This document shows, piece by piece, positions 14,174 to 52,343 of a stretch of DNA of 64,000 bases (its first letter is position 1; the number at the start of each line of letters is the position of its first letter). The stretch lies in the NCBI GenBank assembly GCA_017540825.1, contig JAFYAH010000011.1, forward strand, positions 1-64,000, given 5' to 3'. The DNA comes from Candidatus Methanomethylophilaceae archaeon (GTDB lineage Archaea; Thermoplasmatota; Thermoplasmata; Methanomassiliicoccales; Methanomethylophilaceae). The notes under the pieces were generated by a model. It ran no database searches. It had not been told where the DNA came from and was given only the letters and a program-made list of their open reading frames with translations. The position numbers and the translations under genes are program-made.

Positions 14174-15892
14174 ATGTCGCGCAGCACCGGCCGCACGCTC
14201 GGGTTCTATCTTCGCCCTTACTCGTGGGAGATCCTGGTCATCGTCACGTTCCAGGCCATCGGAGTGGTCATGCAGGTGCTGGCGATCGGAATGCTCAGGC
14301 CGATCCTGGACAGCAGCGTGGAAGGCTACGGCGTCGAGTACATACTGGATGAGGGGGTCATCCTCCTAGGGATGACGATCGCGTTCGCCGTTTTCGTATC
14401 ACTGGCGTCGAGGATGTCGTCCCAGCTGTCGCTGTCTGTGTCCTCCGACATGAGGCGCGACGTACTGGCTTCGTCGCTCAAGGTCCAGAGGCTGGACTCG
14501 GTGGGGGACATGGGGTCGTTCTCGATGACCTGTCTGACGTCCGACGTGCAGGAGGTCCAGGAGCACGTCTTCAAGTCCTTCTCCACTTATCTTGCCCTGC
14601 CGTTCTTGGCGACTGCCATGGTCGCCTGCACATATATGATAAACGCGACGGTGGGGGTCATGGTCATAATGGCGATGATCTCGGTCATCTTAATAACGTA
14701 CCTTCTCTCCCGGCGCACGTACGAGGCGTATGCGGAGAAGATCGTCAGTCTCGACAATCTGAACACGATGTTCAAGGAGGAGGTCAAAGGCGCTAGGATG
14801 ATCAGGGCGTTCGGGGGGAAGGACCACGAGATGGAGAAGTATCTCCGCGCAAGCAACACGTATGGGTCGTGCACCAAGAGGATAGCGCTGAACAGCTACT
14901 ACCTCCCATCGTTCTCCATGGCGTTCGTCTGGATATTTGTGGTCATGGTCTATATGATCGCGGCTTTAGGGCTGTCGTCGCATGTCATCCGCCCCACGCA
15001 CCTGGTCCTCTTCATGCAGTTCACCACCTGCATAATATCCTCGCTCGCCTTGGTGCCCTACATCTGCCTGAGCATCCCCCGCGCCAGAGTGAGCATGAGA
15101 AGGATAGGGGGAGTCTCCGGCCTGCACGAGTCCCCTGTGCCGAACACCGAGAGGGCGGAGGACCCCTGCGACCTCAGGGCGTCCGGCACGAGGTTCGAGG
15201 ACGGCTTCGGCCGCGTCATGCTGGACGGGCTGGACCTGGAGATTCCGAGAGGCACGGTCGCGACCGTCACCGGAGCCAACGGATGCGGTCTGACGGAGCT
15301 CGTCGACATCGTCACGGCGTTCTCCCTTCCCACTTCCGGCAGCGTGTCCGTATGCGGGATGGACGTGGGTTCCTCCGACCCTCGCGACATCCGCAGGGCA
15401 GTTTCCTACGCCGGCCGCCAGTCGGGAGTGTTCTCGGGGACCATCCGCTTCAACCTGGATCCTGCCGGGGCCTGCGACGACGACTCCATACTGGAAATGT
15501 GCAGGCGCACGGGCTTCATAGACTACGTGGAGCTGTCCGAAGGCGGCCTGGACGCGAAAGTGTACTCCGCTATGATGTCCGGGGGGCAGGTCCAGCTGAT
15601 GGCTCTGACCAGATGCCTTCTGAGGGATGCGGAGATGTACGTGCTGGACGACTGCCTGTTCTCCATGGACGAGGCCACCAGGAGGAAAGCCGTCCGCGCG
15701 GTGCTGGACGTCCGTCGCGGAAGGACGGTGTTCTTCGCCTCGCACGAGATGGATACCGTGGAGGTCTCCGACGTGGTCTTCCTGATGAAGGACGGGCGCA
15801 TCGTGGATTCCGGGACTCATGAGCGCCTCATGTCCTGCTCCGGCGCCTATTACGAGATGTATTCGAGAAGCTCGGGAGGGATCGTTTGCTGA
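14174..15892 (+). CDS. ABC exporter half-transporter with degenerate Walker A
   Basis: A 572-residue protein with an N-terminal transmembrane domain of about six helices (residues 18-300) and a C-terminal nucleotide-binding domain. The Walker A motif reads GANGCGLTEL (about residues 366-375), with Leu where the phosphate-binding Lys should be. The signature MSGGQ (about 468) is intact. Walker B is YVLDD, with Asp at the catalytic Glu position, and the H-loop ASHE is present. The product therefore probably binds ATP without hydrolysing it. It is translationally coupled to the next gene, whose motifs are degenerate in the complementary way, so the two should form a heterodimeric exporter. Substrate unknown. 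Confidence 0.9.
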   Translation: MSRSTGRTLGFYLRPYSWEILVIVTFQAIGVVMQVLAIGMLRPILDSSVEGYGVEYILDEGVILLGMTIAFAVFVSLASRMSSQLSLSVSSDMRRDVLASSLKVQRLDSVGDMGSFSMTCLTSDVQEVQEHVFKSFSTYLALPFLATAMVACTYMINATVGVMVIMAMISVILITYLLSRRTYEAYAEKIVSLDNLNTMFKEEVKGARMIRAFGGKDHEMEKYLRASNTYGSCTKRIALNSYYLPSFSMAFVWIFVVMVYMIAALGLSSHVIRPTHLVLFMQFTTCIISSLALVPYICLSIPRARVSMRRIGGVSGLHESPVPNTERAEDPCDLRASGTRFEDGFGRVMLDGLDLEIPRGTVATVTGANGCGLTELVDIVTAFSLPTSGSVSVCGMDVGSSDPRDIRRAVSYAGRQSGVFSGTIRFNLDPAGACDDDSILEMCRRTGFIDYVELSEGGLDAKVYSAMMSGGQVQLMALTRCLLRDAEMYVLDDCLFSMDEATRRKAVRAVLDVRRGRTVFFASHEMDTVEVSDVVFLMKDGRIVDSGTHERLMSCSGAYYEMYSRSSGGIVC

Positions 15893-17565
15893 GGAGGCTC
15901 TTCTGGCCGGAGGCCTTCGACCTGCTGGAGGGCTACGCCGAGAAGCCGGCGAGGAAGATGCGCGTTTATGCCGCTCTGTCGCTGCTGTCCGTGGTGCTGC
16001 TGTCGTCGGTCCCTTACATCGCAGGAACGTTCATCAACGGGCTGGTCAAGGTCAGCTCCGACCAGAACGACATCGACCTCGCTTTCGTCATGGACACGGG
16101 GGCTGTCGTCGTCCTGATCATCACGTTCTGGTACGTGACCACGTCCAGCATCCAGAAGGAGATGGTGCTGCAGAGCCTCGCTCTCACCAGGAAGATCAGG
16201 GAGGACCTGGGCGACAAGCTCATGACGGTGTCGATCGGGGACGTGGAGGCCATCCGCTCCGGAGAGATGTCTGCGAAGTTATCCGGGGATCTTCCTGCGG
16301 TCGGAAACCTCCTGTCCAAGGACTTCGTGGAGTTCTTCTCGGGGAACGTGATGATCGTGATGATACTCGTCGCCATGGTGTTCGTCTCGCCGGCCCTGGC
16401 CTTGGTTTACATCGTCACGATCCCGTCCACGCTCATCGCCGCGAGGATATTGACGAGGATGTCCGAGAGGGACTTCCTCACCAGGAAGGAGACGATGGAT
16501 GCGATAAGCTCCGGGATGGGGGACATCATAGCCAACCACCGCACGATCAAGATAAACAACCTCGAGGACGTGATGATGGACAGGTTCGAGGAGTCCAATC
16601 GCCAGTTCGTGAGGGCTACGGTGCAGTCCGAGTCCCGCAGCGGCCTGATGGTGCCCCTGGCCAGCGTGGCGTCCAACTTTGGCTACGTGGCCACGGTCCT
16701 CGCCGGGGCCGTGATGATGTTCGACATGACCCTGGACCTGGGGATGTTCCTGGCGTTCATGGTATACGTTCGCCTGGTCAACAAGCCTCTTGCCCAGTCC
16801 GCCTCTGCGTACGACAACATAAAGTCGGAGACCATGTCGCTCAAGCGCATGCTGTCGATACTGAACATGCCGGACGAGGAGGAGAAGGACCTGGAGGACG
16901 GGCCCGATCTTCGCGGGAGCGTGGAGTTCGAGGACGTGAGGTTCTCGTACTCGCCGGGGAAGGAGGCCCTCCGCGGCGTGTCGTTCACTGTGGAGGAGGG
17001 AGAGGTCGCGGTCATCGCAGGGCCGACCGGCTCCGGCAAGACCACCTTGCTGAACCTCCTGATGCGCTTCTACGTCCCCGATTCGGGAACCGTCAGGATC
17101 GGAGGGCGCGACGTGAGCGGCATATCGCGCAGGGACCTGAGCCGTACGGTGGCGGCCGTGCTCCAGGACCCGTGGGTGTTCGACGGGACCATAAGGGAGA
17201 ACATAGTGTATAACAGGAAATGGGTAACCCAGGAGGACCTGGACGCTGCGCTCGCGATCACGGGGTTCGAAGGATACGTGAACAGCCTTCCGGACGGCCT
17301 CGAGACTCGCGTGGGCGACGATGTCCGTATACTCCCGCTGGCCCAGAGGAGGATGCTGGCGATGGCCAGGGCGGTTCTCGGTGACCCGAAGATCCTCGTG
17401 CTGGACGAGGCGTTCTCCGGGCTGGACCCCCTGACCGAGTCGGCCGTGTTCGAAGGGCTGAGGCGCATCATGGCCGGGCGCACCGTCCTGATCGTGAGCC
17501 ATGAGCGCGTCATGGCCGACTGCGCCGACAAGGTGATACGCCTGGAGTCCGGCAGGACCGTGCGA
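15886..17565 (+). CDS. ABC exporter half-transporter with degenerate signature motif; ends at CGA
   Basis: A 559-residue partner of the preceding protein. It starts at TTG 15886, overlapping the upstream stop. Six membrane helices precede a nucleotide-binding domain with perfect Walker A (GPTGSGKTTL, about residue 380), Q-loop VLQDPWVFDG and Walker B ILVLDEAFSGLD with the catalytic Glu. The signature motif is lost: LPLAQRR stands where LSGGQ is expected. Paired with its neighbour, one composite ATP site would be fully canonical and the other dead. The frame has no standard stop until 17601, inside the convergent gene; the in-frame CGA at 17563-17565 ends it at VIRLESGRTV, leaving one base between the two genes. 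Confidence 0.88.
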
Positions 17566-17566
17566 C

Positions 17567-18013
17567 TCACCAGAGGCTCGACCTGTCGACGTTGCTGTTG
17601 ACCCTTCCGGGGGAGTCCAAGCCCTTGATGATAGGCATGAACACGGCTCCGGAGGACATGCCGGGGGTCTTGTTCAGGCCTATGATCTCCGGCTCGTGAT
17701 AGTTGGTTATGATGACCTGGTACCTCTGTACCTGGTCCTCGACCGAGATGCAGGGGTGCTCGGAAGATTTCAGTATGTCCAGGGTGACGTCGGCCAGCGC
17801 CTGTATCTCCTCCGGGGTGACGTCGTCGGAGAGATGGATGAAGAACGTGTGCTCCTCGGTGGTCCCGTTGAGCAGGTACGTGACCTCGGACTCGCCGACG
17901 ATCTTCTTGAACTTCTCCGGCTTCTCGCCTTCTCCTGCGAGGGCGATCATGCGCCTCTTCCAGGTCTCAGGGATGTCGATGTAGATCGCATCCTCTCCGA
18001 GTATCTTCCACAT
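17567..18013 (-). CDS. Conserved protein of unknown function
   Basis: A 148-residue soluble protein that I do not recognise. It has an N-terminal region WKILGEDAIYIDIPETW, a central alpha/beta stretch EEHTFFIHLSDDVTPEEIQALADVTLDIL, and a C-terminal segment with VIITNYHEPEIIGLNKTPG. No signal peptide, membrane segment or metal motif is seen. The pattern recalls small alpha/beta substrate-binding or chaperone-like domains, but nothing decides it. It converges on the ABC transporter and ends with TGA at 17567-17569. Confidence 0.7.
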   Translation of the reverse strand: MWKILGEDAIYIDIPETWKRRMIALAGEGEKPEKFKKIVGESEVTYLLNGTTEEHTFFIHLSDDVTPEEIQALADVTLDILKSSEHPCISVEDQVQRYQVIITNYHEPEIIGLNKTPGMSSGAVFMPIIKGLDSPGRVNSNVDRSSLW

Positions 18014-18218
18014 AAGGGCAGGAATGTCGGCTTTCCGTTAATATGTTCCTTCCGGAACTGCTGTCTTCGGCGGAACGCGACCTCTACAGACTTCATCCTG
18101 ACGCCGATGCCCATGCATATGCTGCTTTCCGACCCAGGCTCGGCGGCGCATTGTTTTCTGCCAATCATGCATCGAGCCCTCATGCTCGCGTATTAGGTTG
18201 GCATTCGTCGGATTCGGA

Positions 18219-19925
18219 TCGGCTGTCGGCCCAGGACCGTTCTCTCGGAGTGATCACCGCCACGCGTTTCCCGCTTATCCCTATGGCGATCCAAACCACA
18301 TTCTCGTCGCCTGGTTCGGAGGAATACCCCTTGTCATAGATCTGCCTGAGGGCTGTGGCGGCCGATGACGCAGGTGGCTTCGACCAGGAGGTTTTTATCT
18401 CCACGACGATGGCCGGATGCTTCGAGTCTCCCGGCACGAAGATGTCGCAGGCTCCGAGCCCTTTCGGAAACTCCTCGAACGCTTTCATTCCTGACGCGCG
18501 CATAGCGGAGCAGAGAGCGTTCTTGTACCTGTCGTGGGCCGCCTTGTCCGATGCCCTTCCCGACTCGCAGCCCCCCTTCCAGGTGCTGTCCATCGAGTGC
18601 CCGCCGAGTATGAACTGCAGGTCGTCGCGTATGGACTTCGCATCCCCTGTCAGCATGTGCGCCCTCAGCCCGATGCTCACGTCCGCCTCGCGTTCCGCAG
18701 CTTTGTCCACCAGAGATCTGAACGACATCGCGATCTCGCGGTTGACCATTGCGATATCATAGTCTCCGTCTTCCGACGGCTCCGCCCTGAGGTATCCGGC
18801 CATCACCAGATACGAGTACACGAGCTTGGGATCCGTGTCGGGCTCGAACAGGTCGGGATAGGCTATGGACCTTTCCAGCTCGGTCCTGATCCTGGATTCC
18901 GGGTTCTGGTACAGGCTCTTCAGCTCCTGCAGGGCGACCCCGTCTATCCTGGAGACGAGCTCTGAGGACAGTCCGCCGCCGGTGGAGCCGTCCCAGTAGC
19001 TCCTGGCAGGCTTGTTCTCATCGTTGGACCTGGACTGCAGGTACTTCACGACGCTGTAGGGGTTGTAGATGTCGGAACTTCCGAATTTGTATCCGTCGTA
19101 CCAGTCCCTTATCTCGCCCATCGTGGCAGGGTCGTCGTAGCCAGTATCCTTCAGGAGGTCTCCGACTTCCTGTTCGGTGAAGCCGAAGTGCTCGTTTCCC
19201 TCCATGCTGAGGACATCCATCACCTTGGGGTTGTTGAAGCTGCTCAGCATGCCGGCTTTCATGAGCGGCATGATCCCGGTGATGACTCCGGTGCGCATAT
19301 GGGCGTTGGTCTTGAACGTCTGCTCCATGAAAGGTCTGATTCTTTTGATCAGAATGTCGTATGCGTCTTCGGACGCTATGTTCTGGAATACGTGGTCGTA
19401 TTCGTCCACAAGGACGATCGTCCTGTTGCCATACGTCGAATCGAGGACCTCGCACATGTCCGCTATGGAGCTGTTGAGCCCCGACTCGCTGAGCTCCATG
19501 CGGGAGCATCTGTCCAAGAGGCGGACGCTGGCATCGGTGAGCGACTCGCGAGGGATGCTGTCGGCCACTCTGGATACGATCTCTTTCAGGCTGTCTTCTA
19601 AAGATAGCGGGGATGACGGCACAAGCCTGCTGAAGTCCATTCTTATCACAGGATAGGCGTTTTTGTGCCGACCGCATTCTTTGCATGATGATATTTTTGA
19701 GCCTTTGAATAAATCAGGCTTGTCTTTGTACTTCATGTTGAAGAAGTAGTCCAGCATGGAGAGGTTGATGCTCTTCCCGAACCTGCGCGGGCGAGTGTAA
19801 AGGAGAACCTGGCCTTCCGCCTTGCAGACGTCCCGGATCATCAGTGTCTTGTCGACGAAGTAGTATCCACCGGTGACCAGTGACCTGAAGTCGTATACTC
19901 CGTCAGGGTACATCTTCGTCATCAT
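18219..19925 (-). CDS. AAA-ATPase / PD-(D/E)XK nuclease-like protein; ends at CGA
   Basis: About 568 residues. The N-terminal AAA-ATPase-like domain has a P-loop variant TRPRRFGKSINLS near residue 46 and a Walker B VLVDEYDHVF near residue 165. The C-terminal part has CDIFVPG...IVVEIKTSW (Asp, then Glu-x-Lys) of the PD-(D/E)XK nuclease fold. This pair of domains defines a family expanded in gut anaerobes and often mobile; its role is unknown. The standard frame ends at 18180, but the first in-frame CGA, after ITPRERSWADS (18219-18221), fits the usual C-terminus. No CGA occurs earlier in the gene. A TATA-like CTTTATTAAG lies about 25 bases upstream. Confidence 0.85.
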
Positions 19926-23910: not shown

Positions 23911-23989
23911 GCACGGGTGCTGTCCTGAGCGGAAATAACCGATGTCGGCTCTGAATAAGGTTGTTAAACGGGACCGCCATGCGGGAGGC

Positions 23990-24835
23990 ATGTCCAGGCT
24001 CCTGATATGCTCCGAGGTCGATCTCCCGTCCGTCAACATGAGGTCTCGCCTCCTCGCGAAGGGAGGATGGGAGGACATCGGGGACGACAGGGAATGCGCC
24101 TATATGGCGAAGGGGGACGCGGTCCTGATGTCGATGCCCGACATGCACATCCGCCACGAGCTCCCCGACGAGCAGGCCGAGAGGTTCGGGGTCAGGGTGG
24201 ACGACATAGTGGTGATGTCAAAACACTCGGCTAAGAGCGGCATGCCGGCGCTCACGGCCCATCCCATAGGGAACTATCACGAGAACCAGTACGGGGGGCT
24301 CGCGGAGACCCTCGCGCCCGCATCTCCCGCCCTAATGACAGACGCCTTGAGGCGCATCGTCAGGTACAACCCGGAGGAGGGCGTCCAGACGTGCTTCGAG
24401 GTCACGCACCACGGGCCGTTCGCGAGGAAGCCGATATTCTACATCGAGATAGGCAGCGACGAGTCCAACTGGGGGAACATGACGGCCGCTGAGACATTGG
24501 CCAACGTGATAGCGGACCTGGAGCCCGACGACGGAGCCATCAGGCTGGTGGGCGTGGGAGGCGGGCATTACGCGCCTCGCTTCTCCGAGGTCGCGCTGAG
24601 GTACAGGGCGTCCTTCGGCCACATGCTGCCCAACTACCAGATGGAGGGCCGCGACGACGAGGACATAGTCAGGATGATGAGGGCCGCATGCGAGGCGACC
24701 GGAACGAAGACGGTGTACCTCCACAGGAAGTCTATGAAGAAGCCGGAGGAGAGGCGCATCTCGGGCCTCATATCCTCCGCAGGGCTGGAGCAGGTACAGT
24801 CCGCCGATCTGGAGCCGCTCGGTGGGAGTCCACGA
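23990..24835 (+). CDS. dtdA: D-aminoacyl-tRNA deacylase, archaeal type; ends at CGA
   Basis: A 281-residue DTD2/DtdA enzyme, which removes D-amino acids from mischarged tRNA. Family motifs are HPIGNYHENQYGG, the FEVTHHGPFARKPIFYIEIGSDE block (about residues 115-140) and VGVGGGHYAPRFSEVALR. ATG 23990 is chosen because GGAGG lies 6 bases upstream; a frame to 23942 exists. The first in-frame CGA (24833-24835) comes after LEPLGGSP; a standard TGA follows four codons later at 24847, so the end is less certain than for other CGA genes. Convergent with pyrH, overlapping it by 17 bases. Confidence 0.9.
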
Positions 24836-25502
24836 ACGTCCCTTTGATCTCCTTGCCGAGGATGGCGTTGCGAAGCTCTTCGATGTCGCGGCCGTCCACG
24901 ATGAGGATGTCTATCTTGCTCTCTCTGGCGATCTTGATCCCAAGCGGGTCGAACACGCCTGAGCTGGAAGCGTGATGCTCGTCGTAGACGATGTCGTCCA
25001 GCTCGTCTATGGTCATCCTGCTTATCTTCTTCGCGTTCGGGTCCTTCCGAGGGTCCGCGGTGTACACCCCGTCCACAGCGGTGGCGTTTATCATGCGGCT
25101 GGCCCCGAGGGCCCTGGCGACCATCGCCGTGACGGCGTCCGTGGTGTGCCCCGGCTCGGTCCCTCCCATGACGGAGATGCGCCTCCCGTCGTTGACCAGG
25201 TCCTCGGGACGCCTGTGGACGTCGTCGGGCATGTCCCCCAGCGCCAGTGCCAGGAGCTGCGCGTTCATGCGGGTGGCGGCTATCCCCAGGATGTCCTGCT
25301 CGTAGTCCCCGCCTCCAAGCTCCTTCGCGATCCCGGCGTAGTACCTCGCGGTCTTCCCTCCGCCGCATATCACGGCGAGCCTGGCGTCCTTGGAAACCTC
25401 CTTGAGCATTGCTGCCAGGCGCAGGATGTACTCGGAATCGTTCTCTCCCGGAACGAGGACTGATCCTCCTATCGACACTACGACGCTGTCCGTTGCGACC
25501 AC
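24819..25502 (-). CDS. pyrH: Uridylate kinase; ends at CGA
   Basis: A 227-residue UMP kinase of the amino-acid-kinase fold, making UDP for pyrimidine nucleotides. Motifs: VVVSIGGSVLVPGEND at the N-terminus, VICGGGKTARYYA, VMGGTEPGHTTDAVTA and AVDGVYTADPRKDPNAKKI. GTG 25502 is the start, six bases after GGAGG. With standard stops the frame runs to 24768 and adds a tail SHRAAPDRRTVPAPALRRI that no kinase has; ending at the CGA (24819-24821) after GTFVDSH gives the length near 225 normal for archaeal PyrH. This gene is one of the clearest cases for CGA termination. Confidence 0.92.
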
Positions 25503-25595
25503 CTTTCCTCCCCATGGCGACGCCGTTGTTAAATGTTTACGCGGAGGAACTGGCCAGGCGGCCGGCGTGCTGCGCGACACTGTGCCCTCAAGCCA

Positions 25596-25650: not shown

Positions 25651-26883
25651 ATGGGAGAAACCAATTCAGAGGACAAAGCGAGATATGATTTCAAGAAGGA
25701 CATGCAGGAGATCACGAAGTACCGCGGGAGGGGAACCGAGCTGATCTCCGTCTACATCCCGGAGAACAAGCAGATCTCCGAGGTCATGGCCTACCTGAGG
25801 AGCGAGCAGTCGCAGGCGTCCAACATCAAGTCCAAGACGACGATGAAGAACGTCACCAGCGCCATCGACTCCATCGCCGCTCGACTCAAGACCTTCAAGG
25901 CGCCCCCGAAAGACGGGATGGTCATCTTCTGCGGCGAGGTCCCTCGCGCTGGGGACCAGACCAAGATGGTGCAGTACGTCATCTACCCCCCTGAGCCGAT
26001 CACGGCCTTCATGTACAGGTGCGACTCCCAATTCTTCACGGACCCCCTGGACTCGATGCTCCTGGACAAGACGAGCTATGGGCTCATCACCATAGACAGG
26101 TCCGAGGCAACCATAGGCATCCTGTCAGGGAGCAGGATACAGGTGCTGAAGCACTTCGACTCCCTGGTCCCCAGCAAGCACCACCAGGGAGGCCAGTCCT
26201 CGGTCCGTTTCGAGAGGCTGATCGAGATCGCCGCGCACGAGTTCTTCGTCAAGGTCGCGGACAACGCCAACGAGGTGTTCCTCAACAGGCCGGAGCTCGT
26301 CGGGATACTCATAGGAGGGCCCGGAGCGACAAAGGACTTCTTCGTCAAGGAGGAGTTCATGCACCACGAGCTCAGGAAGAAGATAGTCTCCCCGCTGGTG
26401 GACACCGGCTACACGGACGAGTCCGGCCTCAGGGAGCTCGTGGAGAACGCCAAGGACATCATCGTCGACATCCAGCTCACCAAGGAGAAGATGTACATGC
26501 AGAGGCTCTTCACCGAGATCAGGAAGGCCGACGGAGGCCTCTCCTGCTACGGCGAGGACGAGGTCAGGACCGCCACGGACATGGGAGCGGTCGACATCCT
26601 CCTTCTCTCCGAGTCCCTCAAGAAGAAGCGCATAACGATACAGTGCCAGTCCGGGCACACCCACGAGCTGACGGTGGACGACGACGAGAGCAGGTTCCCC
26701 TGCCCCGAATGCGGAGGCAGCACGTCCATAGTCAAGGACGAGGACCTCATCGACGACTTCTTCCTCAGGGCGGACGCGTTCAACAGCCGCGTCCAGATAA
26801 TATCCCCCGACTCCGAGGAGGGCGACATGCTCGTGAAGGCCTTCGGCGGGATAGCCGCTCTGCTGAGATACAAGGTGAATTGA
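25651..26883 (+). CDS. prf1: Peptide chain release factor aRF1
   Basis: A 410-residue class I release factor of the eRF1/aRF1 family. Stop-codon recognition elements are present: NIKS at residues 58-61 and YRCDSQF (YxCxxxF) at 122-128. The hydrolysis motif GGQ is at 180-182, and a C-terminal zinc ribbon with CPECGG follows. Codon 78 (25882-25884), encoding the Arg of AARLK that aligns with the conserved RLK of eRF1, is CGA. This is one of only two CGA codons found inside gene bodies of the window, in the very gene that reads stop codons. Adjacent to argS with no gap. Ends with TGA. Confidence 0.97.
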   Translation: MGETNSEDKARYDFKKDMQEITKYRGRGTELISVYIPENKQISEVMAYLRSEQSQASNIKSKTTMKNVTSAIDSIAARLKTFKAPPKDGMVIFCGEVPRAGDQTKMVQYVIYPPEPITAFMYRCDSQFFTDPLDSMLLDKTSYGLITIDRSEATIGILSGSRIQVLKHFDSLVPSKHHQGGQSSVRFERLIEIAAHEFFVKVADNANEVFLNRPELVGILIGGPGATKDFFVKEEFMHHELRKKIVSPLVDTGYTDESGLRELVENAKDIIVDIQLTKEKMYMQRLFTEIRKADGGLSCYGEDEVRTATDMGAVDILLLSESLKKKRITIQCQSGHTHELTVDDDESRFPCPECGGSTSIVKDEDLIDDFFLRADAFNSRVQIISPDSEEGDMLVKAFGGIAALLRYKVN

Positions 26884-28644
26884 ATGAGCATAATGGACGA
26901 TTTCGAGAAGGAGGTCTCGGCCGCGGTCGCCGAGGCCCTCAAAGGGATGGGCGCGAGGGAGACGAAGTTCCCTGTGGAGCGCTCTTCCGTGGAGACCGTG
27001 GACCTCGCCGTCCCGTGCTTCTCCATGGCCAAGGCCCTCAGGAAGGCCCCCCAGGCCATAGCAGAGGAGCTGGCCTCCGCCATCTCCCCGTCGGGGCTGA
27101 TCTCCGCGGTCTCCTCGGCCAACGGGTTCCTCAACTTCAACATAGACCCTGCCGCGCTGGTCAAGGGGACCTTGGACGAGATCTGCTCCAGGGGCTCCGA
27201 GTACGGGTCCCTCCCAAAGACGGGGATCAGGGTGAACGTGGAGCACACATCCACCAACCCCACCGGCCCCATCCATGTGGGGCGCGCCCGCAACCCCATC
27301 ATCGGCGACACCTTGGCCAGATGCCTGAAGAAGTGCGGCCACGAGGTGTCCACCGAGTACTACGTGAACGACGTGGGGAAGCAGGTCGTGGTCCTGACAT
27401 GGGGCGTGGAGAACGCCACACCGGAGGAGGTCGCCGCGGAGATAGAGGAGCACGCGAGGACCATCGGCCAGAACGAGAAGGAGAGGGACAAGACCGACCA
27501 CAGGCTCGTCGCCAACTACCGCGTGGCCAACAAGAAGATGGAGGCCGACCCCGCCGTTCAGGAGCAGATCACCGCCATGCTCAGAGGGTTCGAGGCCGGG
27601 GACCAGAAGGTCATAGACACCGTCAGGCACACCGCCGAGATCATGCTGGACGGCCTCAGGGAGACCCTGTCCAACATCAACGTCACCCTGGACAGGTACA
27701 CCTGGGAGTCAGGATACATCGCCGACGGCTCCGCGAAGCGCGTGGTGGAGAAGCTTAAGGCGTCGAAGTACGCCGGGACCACCGACGACGGCGCCTGCTA
27801 CGTGGACCTGAAGGACTTCGGGGTCCAGGGCAAGAACACCAAGTTCACCTTCACCCGCTCCGACGGGACCACCCTGTACACCACCCGCGACCTCGCCTAC
27901 CACCTGGACAAGTTCTCCAGGGCCGACCGCCTCATAGACGTCCTCGGCGAGGACCAGAAGCTCGGGTCCAAGCAGCTCTGCTCCGCCCTGGAGATCCTGG
28001 GGAGCGAGAGGATGCCGGAGCCCCTGTTCTACGCGTTCGTCTCCCTCCCCGAGGGGAAGATGTCCACCAGGAAGGGCGTCGTCGTCTATCTGGACGACCT
28101 CATCGACGAGTCCGTCGCCCGCGCCTACGCGGAGATATCCAAGAGGCGCTCGGATATGCCGGAGGACAGGATGAGGGAGATTGCGAGGATCGTCGGGGTC
28201 GGCGCCATAAGGTACAACATCGTGCGCGTGCAGCCGGAGAAGCAGTTCGTGTTCAAATGGGAGGACGCCCTCAACTTCGACGGGAACTCCGGGCCGTACC
28301 TGCAGTACGTGCATGCCAGGGCGTGCAGCATGCTGAGGAAGGCAGGGGAGTTCGAGCGCGACACCGATCCGTCCAAGCTCACCGACGAGTCCGAGCTGAA
28401 GCTGGCCAAGGTCCTGTCCGAGTACGAGTCGGTCGTCAGGGCCGCCGGCGACGAGAAGAAGGTCCATCTCATGCCTGCCTACGGGCACGACCTGGCGTCC
28501 GCCTTCAACCAGTTCTACGCGTCCGTGTCCGTCCTGGACGCCGGCTCCCGCAGGAACGCGAGGCTGACCCTGGTGGAGTGCGCCAAGGTCGTCCTAGCCG
28601 ACGTGCTGGGGTGCCTGGGGATGGGCGCTCCCGAGGAGATGTGA
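26884..28644 (+). CDS. argS: Arginyl-tRNA synthetase
   Basis: A 586-residue class I synthetase charging tRNA-Arg. The HIGH-type motif is TGPIHVGRARNPI (about residue 125) and the KMSKS-type loop is GKMSTRKGVVVYLDD (about residue 395). The C-terminal DALR anticodon-binding domain includes YLQYVHARACSML and RLTLVECAKVVLADVLGCLGM. ATG 26884 follows the prf1 stop directly, so release factor and arginine charging are co-expressed, which is notable if the CGA arginine codon is unusual here. No CGA codon is used in the gene. Ends with TGA. Confidence 0.96.
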   Translation: MSIMDDFEKEVSAAVAEALKGMGARETKFPVERSSVETVDLAVPCFSMAKALRKAPQAIAEELASAISPSGLISAVSSANGFLNFNIDPAALVKGTLDEICSRGSEYGSLPKTGIRVNVEHTSTNPTGPIHVGRARNPIIGDTLARCLKKCGHEVSTEYYVNDVGKQVVVLTWGVENATPEEVAAEIEEHARTIGQNEKERDKTDHRLVANYRVANKKMEADPAVQEQITAMLRGFEAGDQKVIDTVRHTAEIMLDGLRETLSNINVTLDRYTWESGYIADGSAKRVVEKLKASKYAGTTDDGACYVDLKDFGVQGKNTKFTFTRSDGTTLYTTRDLAYHLDKFSRADRLIDVLGEDQKLGSKQLCSALEILGSERMPEPLFYAFVSLPEGKMSTRKGVVVYLDDLIDESVARAYAEISKRRSDMPEDRMREIARIVGVGAIRYNIVRVQPEKQFVFKWEDALNFDGNSGPYLQYVHARACSMLRKAGEFERDTDPSKLTDESELKLAKVLSEYESVVRAAGDEKKVHLMPAYGHDLASAFNQFYASVSVLDAGSRRNARLTLVECAKVVLADVLGCLGMGAPEEM

Positions 28645-36978: not shown

Positions 36979-38946
36979 ATGCAGTCTGACGACAGGGGCG
37001 GCGCTAGAAGGAACGCGGCCAACGGGAAGGAGAGGCTCGCATGGTGCGACGGGTGCGGAACGCTCCTCCTGGGAGGATCCTGCTCCAGATGCGGATCGTC
37101 CGGCAGGGAGTTCGAGGTCAACAGCCCCGGGGACATACGGCCCTGCATGGGGGATTCCGAGGCCCTCGTCCTCCGGCTGTTCCGCGAGGCGTTCGGTTCC
37201 GACTCCCCCCTGAGAGGGAAGTCCGTCTTCCTGAACAAGGTCCCGGGGGAGGACCGCGCGGACGAGGTCGTCGCCCACGGGGCAGTCCTGGGCGTGCTCA
37301 AGTTCGACCTCAGGCTGGGCAGGACGGTCCTGGAGCTGAGGCAGCCCGGGGCGGAGCTGTTCCTCCCAGTGGCGACCAGGAACGTGGTCGTCTTCGGCAA
37401 CATGTCCGGACATCTCAAGGGGAAGGCGGTTCCGGGAGAGAACGTGCTCGACGTGAAGGGGGAGTTCGAAGCCGGGGCGCCTCTTATACTGAAGAAGGGC
37501 CAGAAGGCAGGCCCCGGCGTGGCCCTGGTCTCCTCCAAGGACATGAAGGCGGCCGAAAAGGCGGCCAGGATACGCGACCTCGGCCCGACGTCCGGCATGC
37601 CAGTGTCTCCAGACGCCGGCCTGGACGAGTTCGTGCAGTGCAACAGGGAGCACGTCAGGCGCATCGGCCGCCGGGGGGTCCGCGAGATAAGGGCGTTCCT
37701 GGAGAAGAGCGGGCCCAGGAATCTTCCGGTCACCGTGTCGTTCTCCGGGGGGAAGGATTCCCTGGCGGCGTACGGGATCGCCCGCGAGGCCGTCGGAAGG
37801 CTGGACCTCCTCAACATCGACACGGGGCTGGAGTTTCCCGAGTCGACCGAATACGTGCGCAGGTTCGCGGAAAGAAGCGGGTGCAGGCTCCTGGTGGCGT
37901 CCGGAGGCGACGGGTTCTGGGACAACGTGGACTCCTTCGGCCCTCCCGCGAAGGACTTCAGGTGGTGTTGCAAGGTCTGCAAGCTCGGCCCGATGACAGG
38001 CCTCATAGAGCGCGAGTACCCGGACGGCGTGATAACCGTCGAGGGGAACCGCTGGCTGGAGTCGTTCGCCCGCTCGGGCATAGGGTTCGTGACGAGGAAC
38101 CCGTTCGTCCCGAACCAGGTCAACCTCAACCCGATAAGGTCGTGGCGCTCGGCCGACGTGTGGGCCTACATACTGTCCCACAGGCTGGAGTACAACCCGC
38201 TGTACGACAGGGACTTCGAGAGGATCGGCTGCTACCTCTGCCCCTCGTGCCTGGCCAGCGAGTGGAGGAACACCGGGAGGATACACCCCGAGCTGTACTC
38301 CCGCTGGGAGGGGTATCTCCACGAGTACTGCGAGAGGCGCGGCCTGCCGCCGGAGTATGCGGACATGGGATTCTGGAGGTGGAAGGTGCTGCCTCCGAAG
38401 ATGGTTCAGCTCTCCGAAGGGATGGGCCTGCGCGTCAAGCCCGAGTCGCCGGAGGGGCCGGCCATAGACATGCTCAAGGGGGCCTCGCCCTGCGCCGCAG
38501 GAGGGTACTCCGTGGAGGCCGTCGTCCGCGTCCAGAGGACCAGGGACTTCGACTACGTGGAGGACGCCCTACGCACGGTAGGGGACGTGAGGTACTCTCC
38601 GGACTACGAGATCGCGCTACTGAAGACTCCCGCAGGCAAGGCCAAGCTGTTCGGCGGGGGCCAGGTCTCCGTAACGGCTCCGGACGCCAAGAACGCGAGG
38701 AAGGTGTTCGAGAAGGCGGTGAAGGCCCTCATCAGGGCGGAGATGTGCACCGAATGCGGGATATGCGCCAAGAGCTGCCCCCGTCGCGCCATCAGGATCT
38801 CCGGCGGGATGAGGGTGGACCAGGACAGATGCACCTCGTGCGGCCGCTGCGAGTCGTCGTGCATGGTGGTGCACTACTACGACAAGCTGATGGAGGACGC
38901 GGGAGGCGGAGGACGTGCCCAGTGCTCCAAAGCGCGGCAGGGCCGA
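36979..38946 (+). CDS. PAPS-reductase-like ATP pyrophosphatase fused to zinc ribbon, PUA-like and 4Fe-4S ferredoxin domains; ends at CGA
   Basis: A 655-residue multidomain protein. N-terminus: zinc ribbon CDGCG...CSRCG (about residues 24-41). Residues ~100-190: PUA-like RNA-binding fold. From about 250: N-type ATP-pyrophosphatase with P-loop SFSGGKDSLAAYG, the fold of PAPS reductase, and a further cysteine set CYLCPSC. C-terminus: two ferredoxin clusters, CTECGICAKSCP (about 590) and CTSCGRCESSC (about 617). The mix suggests sulfur transfer or reduction on an RNA or nucleotide using ferredoxin-type electrons. Archaeal family; substrate not established to my knowledge. The first in-frame CGA is at 38944-38946, shortly after the ferredoxin domain; the standard frame would run to 39087 into the next gene. 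Confidence 0.85.
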
Positions 38947-39071
38947 GGGGCCGGGCCAGGGCTGACGGGTTCCGGCGCGCCGCCACAGCATCGACGCAGA
39001 GGGAACAGGCTCCGTCATGCGCCGCATATTCCCTGGGCAAGCATAAAATACGGGCATCCTCTAATGCGGGC

Positions 39072-39794
39072 ATGGAACTCCTCCTAGGTCTGGCGATGGT
39101 GCTCGGAATAGGCCCCGCCTTGGCTCTGATGTACCTGGTCGTAAGGAACTACACCTATCCGAAGGTCGAGCAGCCGTTCTTCAGCGATCCCGCGTTCTTC
39201 GGGCTGTTCATCGTCGGGCTGGTGGAAGGGTCCGTCCTCTACATGGCCTTGGCCCTGTTCAGGTTCGCGTCCAACCCGATCTACATGGTCCTATTCGCCG
39301 CCGTGGAGCTCATGGCGATGCTGGTCGTCATGAATCTGAGGAGGTTCCGCGGGAAGTCCGACTCCGTGTTCTACGGATACGCCATAGGCCTGGGCATGTC
39401 CAGCGGGCTGGCGACGGGCATATGCTTCGTCCTCGCCAAGACCGTCGAGCACTTCGACGCTTCCGCGATCACGATAGTCGTCATATCCGTCTCTCTGGCG
39501 CTCATTCTGGGCGCGTGCGGGACCAACGTGGGGGAAGGCATAGCGAGGCACCTGCCGATGCAGTACCTGCTCCAGGGGCTCATCCTGCTGATCGCCTACA
39601 ACCTGCTATTCACCGTGGTCCTGCAGGGCGGGGAGCTGGGCGGAGAGATAGTATACTACGTCTGCCAGGTGATGATGCTGGTCCTCTCGGCCTTCTACTT
39701 CTATCGCATAATGTACGTGAAGCTGCCCGGCGTGGTGAGAGACGTGCTGAAGATGGAAGGGAAGAAGCGCGACGACATCCCGGGGTCCAGGCGA
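39072..39794 (+). CDS. Multi-spanning membrane protein (about seven helices); ends at CGA
   Basis: A 240-residue membrane protein. Hydrophobic segments: LLLGLAMVLGIGPALALMYLV, FFGLFIVGLVEGSVLYMALALF, PIYMVLFAAVELMAMLVVM, YAIGLGMSSGLATGICFVLA, ITIVVISVSLALILGACG, YLLQGLILLIAYNLLFTVVL and IVYYVCQVMMLVLSAFYFY. The topology recalls PrsW-type proteases, but no clear metal motif is seen, so I leave it as unknown. No standard stop until 40253; the frame would cover the whole convergent zinc-ribbon gene. The first in-frame CGA (39792-39794), after KRDDIPGSR, is half of a CGATCG palindrome whose other half ends the convergent gene. Confidence 0.8.
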
Positions 39795-40232
39795 TCGCGC
39801 CTTGTAGACCCCTATCCTGACCTCGGATATGAGGCAGCGGTCCAGCATGGCGGCCACCATCTTCTCGGCCTTCGCGCCGGCTATGTCGCGGACGTCCTCC
39901 ATGGTGAACGTTCCCTTGATCTCGGTGAGCCCCTCAGCCAGTATGGCCATCTTGGTCTCGAGGTCCGAGCAGTGCTCGTATCTGTAGACGAGGGTGGAGT
40001 AAGGGTCGGCCCCTTCTATGCGCGCCTTCTTCTTGGCGGCGTCCGGGGGGACGAAGCCCATCGCCTGGGAGAGCGCCTCCCTGACCGCGCCCTGGTCGTT
40101 CGACGTGAAGTAGATGGGTATCCTGGAGTTCTCGAACGAAGCGCCGCAGTACGGGCAGGAGGATGTCGCCTTGGTCAGGTCGACGACCCTGGGACGCCCG
40201 CACGTGTCGCACCTGGACAGCCCGTACCTCAT
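39795..40232 (-). CDS. Zinc-ribbon / winged-helix protein of unknown function; ends at CGA
   Basis: A 145-residue protein. An N-terminal zinc ribbon CDTCGRPRVVDLTKATSSCPYCG (two CxxC pairs, shown here for the key cysteines) precedes a helical region; the C-terminal GTFTMEDVRDIAGAKAEKMVAAMLDRCLI looks like a winged helix. It fits archaeal DUF proteins thought to bind nucleic acid. ATG 40232 lies 5 bases after the pdaD end; the ribosome binding site reads AGGCGATC. The first in-frame CGA (39795-39797) follows RIGVYKA. Standard reading continues antisense through the membrane gene to 39606, which is not credible. Confidence 0.75.
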
Positions 40233-51170: not shown

Positions 51171-52343
51171 ATGAGGCTCATCATCTACACCGGCAAGGGC
51201 GGGGTGGGCAAGACGTCCACGTCCGCCGCGACCGCGTACAGGCTGTCGAAGCTGGGCTACCGCACGATCCTGATGAGCTCGGACTCGGCACATTCCCTCG
51301 GGGACTCCCTGGGCATGAAGCTCGGCACGGAGATACAGAACGTGGCCGAGAACTTCGACGCGTTCGAGATCGACATCATACACGAGATGAAGACCAGATG
51401 GAGCGAGATACAGGAGTACGTGTCCGCCTTCATGCTCTCGCAGGGCATGGGGGACATCTCCGCGGAAGAGATGGCCATATTCCCTGGGATGGAGATGATC
51501 GCCGCCCTGTTCTATCTGAACACGTTCAAGAAGTCGGGGGAGTACGACGTCGTCATCCTCGACACCGCCCCGACCGGGGAGACCCTGAGGCTCCTGAGCT
51601 TCCCGGACGTCTCCAACTGGTACATGGACCGCCTGTTCTCGGTCCTGAGGAAGCTCATAGGGGTGGCACGCCTGACCGTCGGCAAGCTGATCGACATGCC
51701 GCTGCCGTCCAAGGAGGTTCTGGACTCGCTGGAGGTCATCAAGAGGAACATGGGCGAGGTCAAGGAGATACTCGAGGACTCCGAGAACACCACAGTGAGG
51801 CTGGTCCTCAACCCGGAGCGCATGATCATCAAGGAGACGATGCGCGCCTATACCTACCTCTGCCTGTACAACAAGAACGTCGAGGCGATAGTGGTGAACA
51901 GGGTCATTCCTGCGGAGGCGGCGGCGGGCGGAGGGTTCTTCGCCGAGAAGCTGAAGGAGCAGGAGGGGTACATGGAGGAGATCCACTCCGTGTTCGACCC
52001 CCTGGAGACGAAGACCTGCAGTATGATGCGCACCGAGCTGAGGGGCCTTGAGAAGCTGGACCTGATGGCGGACATGATCTTCGGCGACGAGGACCCGTCG
52101 AAGCTGTACTCCTCGGAGAGCCCGATGGAGTTCTGCACGGTGGACGGCGTGGACCATCTGGTCATGAAGATGCCGTTCGTGGAGAAGGCGGACGTCGAGC
52201 TCTTCCGGGTGGACACGTCCGTTATAGTGGTCCATGTGGGCAGCCAGAAGCGCAACATCCAGCTCCCGGACACCCTGGTCCACGCCGACGTGGTGGGGGC
52301 AGAGTTCAAGGACGGGAAACTTGTTATCAGATTCAAGAGGCGA
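51171..52343 (+). CDS. ArsA/Get3-like ATPase; ends at CGA
   Basis: A 390-residue P-loop ATPase of the ArsA/Get3 branch. It starts RLIIYTGKGGVGKTSTSAATAY (deviant Walker A, residues ~8-17), then MSSDSAHSLGDSLG, and LDTAPTGETLRLLSFP as switch region near residue 125. The CxxC zinc pair of Get3 is not seen, so tail-anchored-protein targeting is not assured; metal-related roles are possible. A CGA at 52341-52343 after VIRFKR is the first in the gene; standard reading would run to 52898 through the next gene. The CGA lies inside AGAGGCGATGG, the ribosome binding site of that gene. Likely leaderless start at 51171. Confidence 0.87.

Follow-up and report, generated by a model that had tools for sequence, protein, structure and literature searches.

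The release factor gene and its codon 78

Can a codon that ends genes elsewhere in a genome stand, conserved, inside the gene whose own product terminates translation? The question is raised by a gene in the window, by which we mean the whole stretch of 64,000 nucleotides analysed here. This stretch is contig C72 in a draft genome of 2.37 Mb (G000 in our numbering), whose nearest named relatives are Methanomethylophilaceae MAGs from ruminant guts. The gene, prf1 (25651-26883, + strand), is translated into an archaeal class-I release factor, aRF1, of 410 aa, and ends in a TGA of its own. Its match to the aRF1 profile TIGR03676 is full-length (534 bits, for a cut-off of 234.7), and the stop-recognition motifs QASNIKS and YRCDSQF are both present. 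No other class-I release factor gene exists in the genome, the second, weak match being below the cut-off and confined to the middle of the model.

Codon 78 of prf1 (25882-25884, + strand) is CGA. We propose that it serves as an internal stop with a regulatory role and that Arg is decoded there when aRF1 is scarce. It lies 17 codons past the last residue of the NIKS motif (codons 58-61, 25822-25833, + strand) and corresponds to the Arg of an RLK segment; on these points the sequence bears out an earlier note on this DNA. The note had also counted two internal CGA codons. Codon 78 is one of them, and the only CGA within prf1, but no second could be identified, codon 78 being by coding signal the only internal CGA in the genes of the window. 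The surrounding context is GCT CGA CTC (25879-25887, + strand), with a U before the codon and a C after it. Codons 79 onward give the conserved LKT in the same frame; since the frame is continuous, a frameshift at codon 78 was rejected. Codon variability 3' of codon 78, which bears on a possible downstream RNA structure, is ordinary. The gene that follows, argS (26884-28644, + strand), was used as a control; none of its 38 Arg codons is CGA.

CGA at the ends of genes

We called 560 genes with the standard code (table 11) in a 772 kb sample of the window's genome. CGA was found in 191 cases in 3' over-runs and in 204 cases in 5' over-runs of the ORFs, and only 8 sites had coding signal on both flanks: prf1, two NifH-NifD linkers, one junction of two genes in the same frame, and ORFs with a weak signal after the CGA. 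The control codons CGG (284), CGT (143) and TTA (58), and likewise AGA, were ordinary within the genes of this sample. Over 19 genomes of the genus, interior CGAs outside prf1 number 13 among 16,467 Arg codons, and several of these 13 are gene or domain junctions. This count replaces a cruder one of "core codons", which took in 5' over-extensions; the codon counts of one genome (G044) were left out, as the gene finder had been trained on wrong frames there. About 103 of 547 genes (~19%) end at CGA in the window's genome. Elsewhere in the genus the figures are 20/47 in G007, 7/44 in G026, 5/33 in G020 and 8/198 in G001, with 0-2% in several others. The base context of terminal CGAs is mixed at +4 and -1, so that a distinct context for them was rejected; a fixed T-CGA-C is found only in prf1.

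The orthologues of these genes point the same way. We restricted the comparison to genes in which 10 or more codons separate the CGA from the ordinary stop that follows it. In 107 comparisons the orthologue's canonical stop fell no more than 5 codons from the CGA, and in 61 of these the two coincided exactly; 4 comparisons placed it at the later stop and 56 at some other position. Counted by gene, 24 had most of their orthologue stops at the CGA and none had them at the later stop. CGA and TGA or TAA are thus seen to interchange at the same gene-end position. For the UMP-kinase-like gene at 24768-25580 (- strand), with CGA at codon 254 (24819-24821), several genomes have TGA at offset 0 or 1 and G007 has CGA. 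In the gene at 39606-40232 (- strand; codon 146, 39795-39797), TGA stands exactly there in G001, G002, G020 and G028, and CGA in G026 and G030. Orthologues of the gene at 36979-39087 (+ strand; codon 656, 38944-38946) end in TAA or TGA 1-6 codons before the CGA. Those of the gene starting at 51171 (+ strand; codon 391, 52341-52343) have TGA at -1 to +2 (G028, G002, G020), and 16 further in-frame CGAs follow in the non-coding overrun past codon 391. Several orthologues of the gene at 23942-24847 (+ strand; codon 298, 24833-24835) have TGA within one codon, or CGA at that place. Probable further cases, with CGA near the end of the ORF, are the genes at 15886-17601 (+ strand; codon 560 of 571, 17563-17565) and 18180-19925 (- strand; codon 569 of 581, 18219-18221).

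On the near-absence of CGA from gene interiors, its presence at gene ends and the orthologue stops taken together, we hold it very probable, as far as sequence comparison can establish it, that CGA is used as a stop codon in the genus. The supposition that CGA is a stop here, on which the earlier note had built its argument, is in this way supported.

Two observations on gene calling may be added. At L151:10509-11579 (- strand), a Toprim-like gene and a thymidylate kinase gene share one frame, parted by a CGA at codon 140; they are separate in G007, and any standard-code gene caller would fuse them. Of 27 TAG-ended ORFs in the window's genome, 15 show coding signal past the TAG (for instance L146:4006-6042 and L007:3165-4157, both + strand), and a pyrH orthologue in L292 (G019) is another example listed with such run-on ORFs. 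TAG is probably often read in the window's genome as pyrrolysine or another amino acid.

Conservation of CGA in prf1

Codon 78 is CGA in 26 of the 27 genomes of the genus that cover it, and CGC in the remaining one, G007. Loss of the codon among relatives with CGA-ended genes would have refuted the earlier note; it is instead retained. The other conserved Arg codons of prf1 in the genus are AGG, CGC, AGA or CGT, never CGA, and are mostly variable. The preceding codon is GCT or TCT in all 25 CGA78 genomes that cover it, although T-ending codons make up only 5.9% of the GCN and TCN (Ala and Ser) codons elsewhere in prf1 of the genus, and the base after the CGA is C in all cases. By inference, this T before and C after recall the contexts of leaky stops. 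The argS genes of the genus have no CGA in 833 Arg codons (prf1 versus argS, p = 3e-10).

The pattern extends beyond the genus. In Methanomethylophilaceae overall, prf1 contains one CGA or more in 62 of 65 genomes, at shifting positions, with almost none in argS. At least one is present in 38 of the 40 family members outside the genus, most commonly at codon 25 and otherwise mostly at codons 11, 27, 50, 78, 99 and 123; in these 40 genomes CGA accounts for 61 of the 886 Arg codons in prf1 and for 11 of the 1,299 in argS (p = 6e-15). The prf1 and argS counts are uncorrected for shared ancestry. In six non-genus genomes none of 3,488 interior Arg codons is CGA, yet prf1 has 7 among its 120 (codons 11, 25, 50, 78, 99 and 105). 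In the neighbouring Methanomassiliicoccaceae-like group, prf1 and argS do not differ in CGA use (p = 0.79). On the prf1 tree, the position of the CGA turns over repeatedly while a CGA persists. The CGA of prf1 is older than the genus, and selection almost certainly keeps it there. What is conserved is the possession of a CGA and not one particular site, which favours regulation over a constraint on residue 78 from the protein or its folding.

Separately, codon 186 of prf1 (26206-26208) is the rare codon CGT in all 28 genomes of the genus, CGT being common there in outgroups. An invariant rare codon is thus possible without any recoding, and this weighs against a feedback role for codon 78.

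The proposed competitor, an arginine tRNA

Termination at CGA would have to compete with the tRNA that reads this codon. tRNA-Arg(UCG) is encoded at G000:C44:19984-20057 (- strand) in the window's genome and is present, in an altered form, in 27 of 31 genomes of the genus; a blastn result according to which near half of the genus lacked it was wrong, a covariance model having found the diverged form. All 19 genomes of one subclade have lost the 31-39 pair (A or C at 31 opposite A39), the remaining cloverleaf being almost fully paired and covarying; the pair is formed in all six outgroup sequences. In the other subclade the pair is intact and U33 has become C33 in 8 of 8 genomes. Two independent changes of this kind suggest selection for poor reading of CGA, the weakening of decoding itself being inferred. 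That the Arg at codon 78 of prf1 is read by this tRNA seems highly likely to us, though the residue inserted is again an inference.

The tRNA went undetected in four drafts, G007, G009, G025 and G029; G009 and G025 carry CGA78, and G029 lacks coverage of codon 78. The last three genomes are incomplete, the contig of G025 stopping beside the expected place and the expected neighbourhood being seen only partly in G009. The explanation that the Arg tRNA was lost altogether was rejected, given its presence in most genomes. Its retention indicates a dual meaning of CGA and not a full reassignment.

G007 (isolate SIG8) is the exception in several respects. It is the most extreme CGA-stop genome, with 43% of sampled genes CGA-ended, including prf1 and argS (L173/L101), which end in TGA or TAA in other species. 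Codons 77-79 of its prf1 read GCC CGC CTC. Neither the tRNA family search nor the specific model found tRNA-Arg(UCG) in this genome, which is 87% complete and in which the expected neighbourhood was partly seen. On the tree G007 branches as sister to the rest of the genus, so that the missing tRNA and the missing CGA78 amount to a single correlated event; the incompleteness of the genome imposes a further caution.

A second conserved in-frame CGA

Of the 26 genus loci with a fused NifH-like/NifD-like ORF (L361-L386), 25 have a single in-frame CGA in the linker; in the window's genome it is codon 296 of the ORF at L152:13258-15432 (+ strand; the same as L379, G000:C23). In most loci the CGA lies 15-17 codons past LAAGR, and most lack an ATG, GTG or TTG from there up to the second domain's conserved cysteine motif; a GTG is present in this interval in G020, G028 and the G002 paralogue. 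In G007 the linker has TAG in place of CGA, followed by an ATG just before the cysteine motif. Outgroup linkers have a CGA in several cases and none in others. The simplest reading is that a leaky CGA in the linker yields free NifH-like protein together with some fusion. The NifH-NifD fusion has been reported in Methanomassiliicoccales, without mention of the codon in the part of that report available to us (PMC11237513).

A proposed feedback valve and its rivals

We propose that CGA has two meanings in these organisms, stop at most sites and Arg at a few, through the retained and weakened tRNA-Arg(UCG). At codon 78 of prf1, aRF1 and this tRNA would compete. When aRF1 is plentiful, termination would occur at codon 78 and leave a useless fragment of 77 residues; when it is scarce, the ribosome would wait, tRNA-Arg(UCG) would win and insert Arg78, and full-length aRF1 would be made in the same frame. 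Codon 78 would then act as a negative-feedback valve on the supply of release factor. Comparison of genomes shows the use of CGA as a stop, the conservation of CGA78, the family-wide CGA in prf1 and the altered tRNA. Recognition of CGA by aRF1 itself, Arg as the inserted residue and the setting of the aRF1 level by competition are inferred. There being no expression data, we regard negative feedback by aRF1 as likely, and the dual-meaning CGA with a valve at codon 78 as a likely explanation of the whole by only a shade less.

Could a simpler account suffice? CGA is rare family-wide, so codon 78 might be a chance leftover, but retention in 26 of 27 genomes in spite of one-step synonymous options and the purge elsewhere, with the contrast between prf1 and argS in the genus (p = 3e-10) and in the rest of the family (p = 6e-15), rules this out for practical purposes. 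A better contender, unlikely as we find it, is that the prf1 CGA is only a slow (hungry) codon, at which the ribosome pauses for folding or for tuning of expression without any action of aRF1. The tRNA does look weakened, and outgroups keep a CGA in prf1 with few CGA-ended genes (1/91 in G038, 0/59 in G031), so that their CGA might be no more than a slow codon, a point against the feedback reading. A mere pause nevertheless fits badly with a codon that demonstrably ends genes in the genus, it does not account for the release factor gene being the one singled out, and a folding pause is hard to reconcile with a CGA that shifts along aRF1 (codons 11, 25, 50, 78, 99 and 123).

Two further accounts grant the codon a special role and seem to us weaker still. 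Codon 78 might sense arginine or charged tRNA-Arg(UCG), low charging leading to termination and less aRF1; the competitor is indeed an Arg tRNA and the adjoining gene is argS. Yet the argS genes of the genus themselves lack CGA (0/833 Arg codons), and to aim such sensing at a release factor gene would be strange, whereas self-control belongs there naturally, which makes the idea improbable. We give even less credit to C-to-U editing of mRNA from CGA to UGA, full at terminal CGAs and partial at codon 78 of prf1. The swap of CGA and TGA at gene ends is a single C-T step, as editing would have it, but the purge of interior CGAs and the conserved changes of tRNA-Arg(UCG) would be left unexplained, and we know of no such editing in archaea.

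Against a role of aRF1 in reading a C at the first codon position, its motifs GTE, NIKS and YxCxxxF have no genus-specific change across the genus; a change in these known stop-recognition motifs common to the genus was accordingly rejected. As a separate observation, NIRS replaces NIKS in the aRF1 of two species near the window's species (prf1 in L177, L189; L024, L076), the lysine changed being one that presumably contacts the first base of stop codons.

Relation to known systems and significance

To our knowledge, sense-to-stop codon changes have been described only in organelles, and a release factor that controls itself by a stop within its gene has been described only from bacteria and giant viruses. 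We found no archaeal case of either in the literature searched, which did not cover preprints and most subscription papers. Of what defines a sense-to-stop change, the near-absence of the codon from gene interiors with its presence at gene ends is met, as are orthologues stopping at the same position with ordinary stops (107 versus 4); loss of the cognate tRNA is not, since 27 of 31 genomes of the genus retain an altered version of it. The change is of the sense-to-stop kind but, as the tRNA is kept, incomplete.

The bacterial gene for RF2, prfB, to which the earlier note compared codon 78, is alike in that a release factor gene carries early a stop signal that the factor itself would read, scarcity leading (in prf1 by inference) to full product, and in that C follows the stop in both (UGA C and CGA C). 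The logic of the analogy holds; the frameshift does not, for prf1 keeps its frame, with Arg as the inferred residue at the codon. The signal in prf1 is moreover a former sense codon, and a factor of the aRF1/eRF1 type is unrelated to RF2. An early in-frame stop conserved among relatives (26/27) is shared with it, but with neither the +1 frameshift at the stop nor the factor family in common, the CGA of prf1 does not belong to the prfB type. Closer in the factor concerned are the class-I release factor genes of Mimivirus and Megavirus (R726, mg280), of eRF1/aRF1 type, in which an in-frame stop is read through and autoregulation has been proposed (PMC3521657). These combine read-through of a canonical UGA with a frameshift, where prf1 has a single CGA with a cognate tRNA, family-wide, in a cellular archaeon. 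The decoding of UAG as pyrrolysine or UGA as selenocysteine resembles our case in that a codon is stop or amino acid, at few sites and with a special tRNA. It differs in that CGA is a sense codon turned stop and the residue is ordinary Arg, and there was no sign of a synthetase or insertion element dedicated to it.

Rare Arg codons of the CGN type or AGG were likewise found changed in bacteria with Codetta, to other amino acids (PMC8629427); the text of that paper makes no mention of a sense-to-stop change. Loss of one anticodon-stem pair also alters decoding in tRNAs with 4-bp stems, where it widens near-cognate decoding (PMC13092985). The change in tRNA-Arg(UCG) differs in affecting the cognate of CGA itself, at pair 31-39, with C33 instead in the sister subclade.

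Taking all this together, we lean, with some reserve, towards a sense codon, CGA, turned stop while a weakened Arg tRNA is kept under selection, with leaky CGAs in a few genes serving the self-control of prf1 and the NifH-NifD linker. Methanomethylophilaceae has cultured members (Methanomethylophilus and Methanoplasma strains), so that the reading of CGA by aRF1, and the capture of a sense codon as a stop, are directly testable. In the species with CGA stops, gene prediction with the standard code would misplace up to about 4-43% of gene ends. In these gut methanogens, a sense-to-stop change and a release factor gene with an internal stop would occur together.
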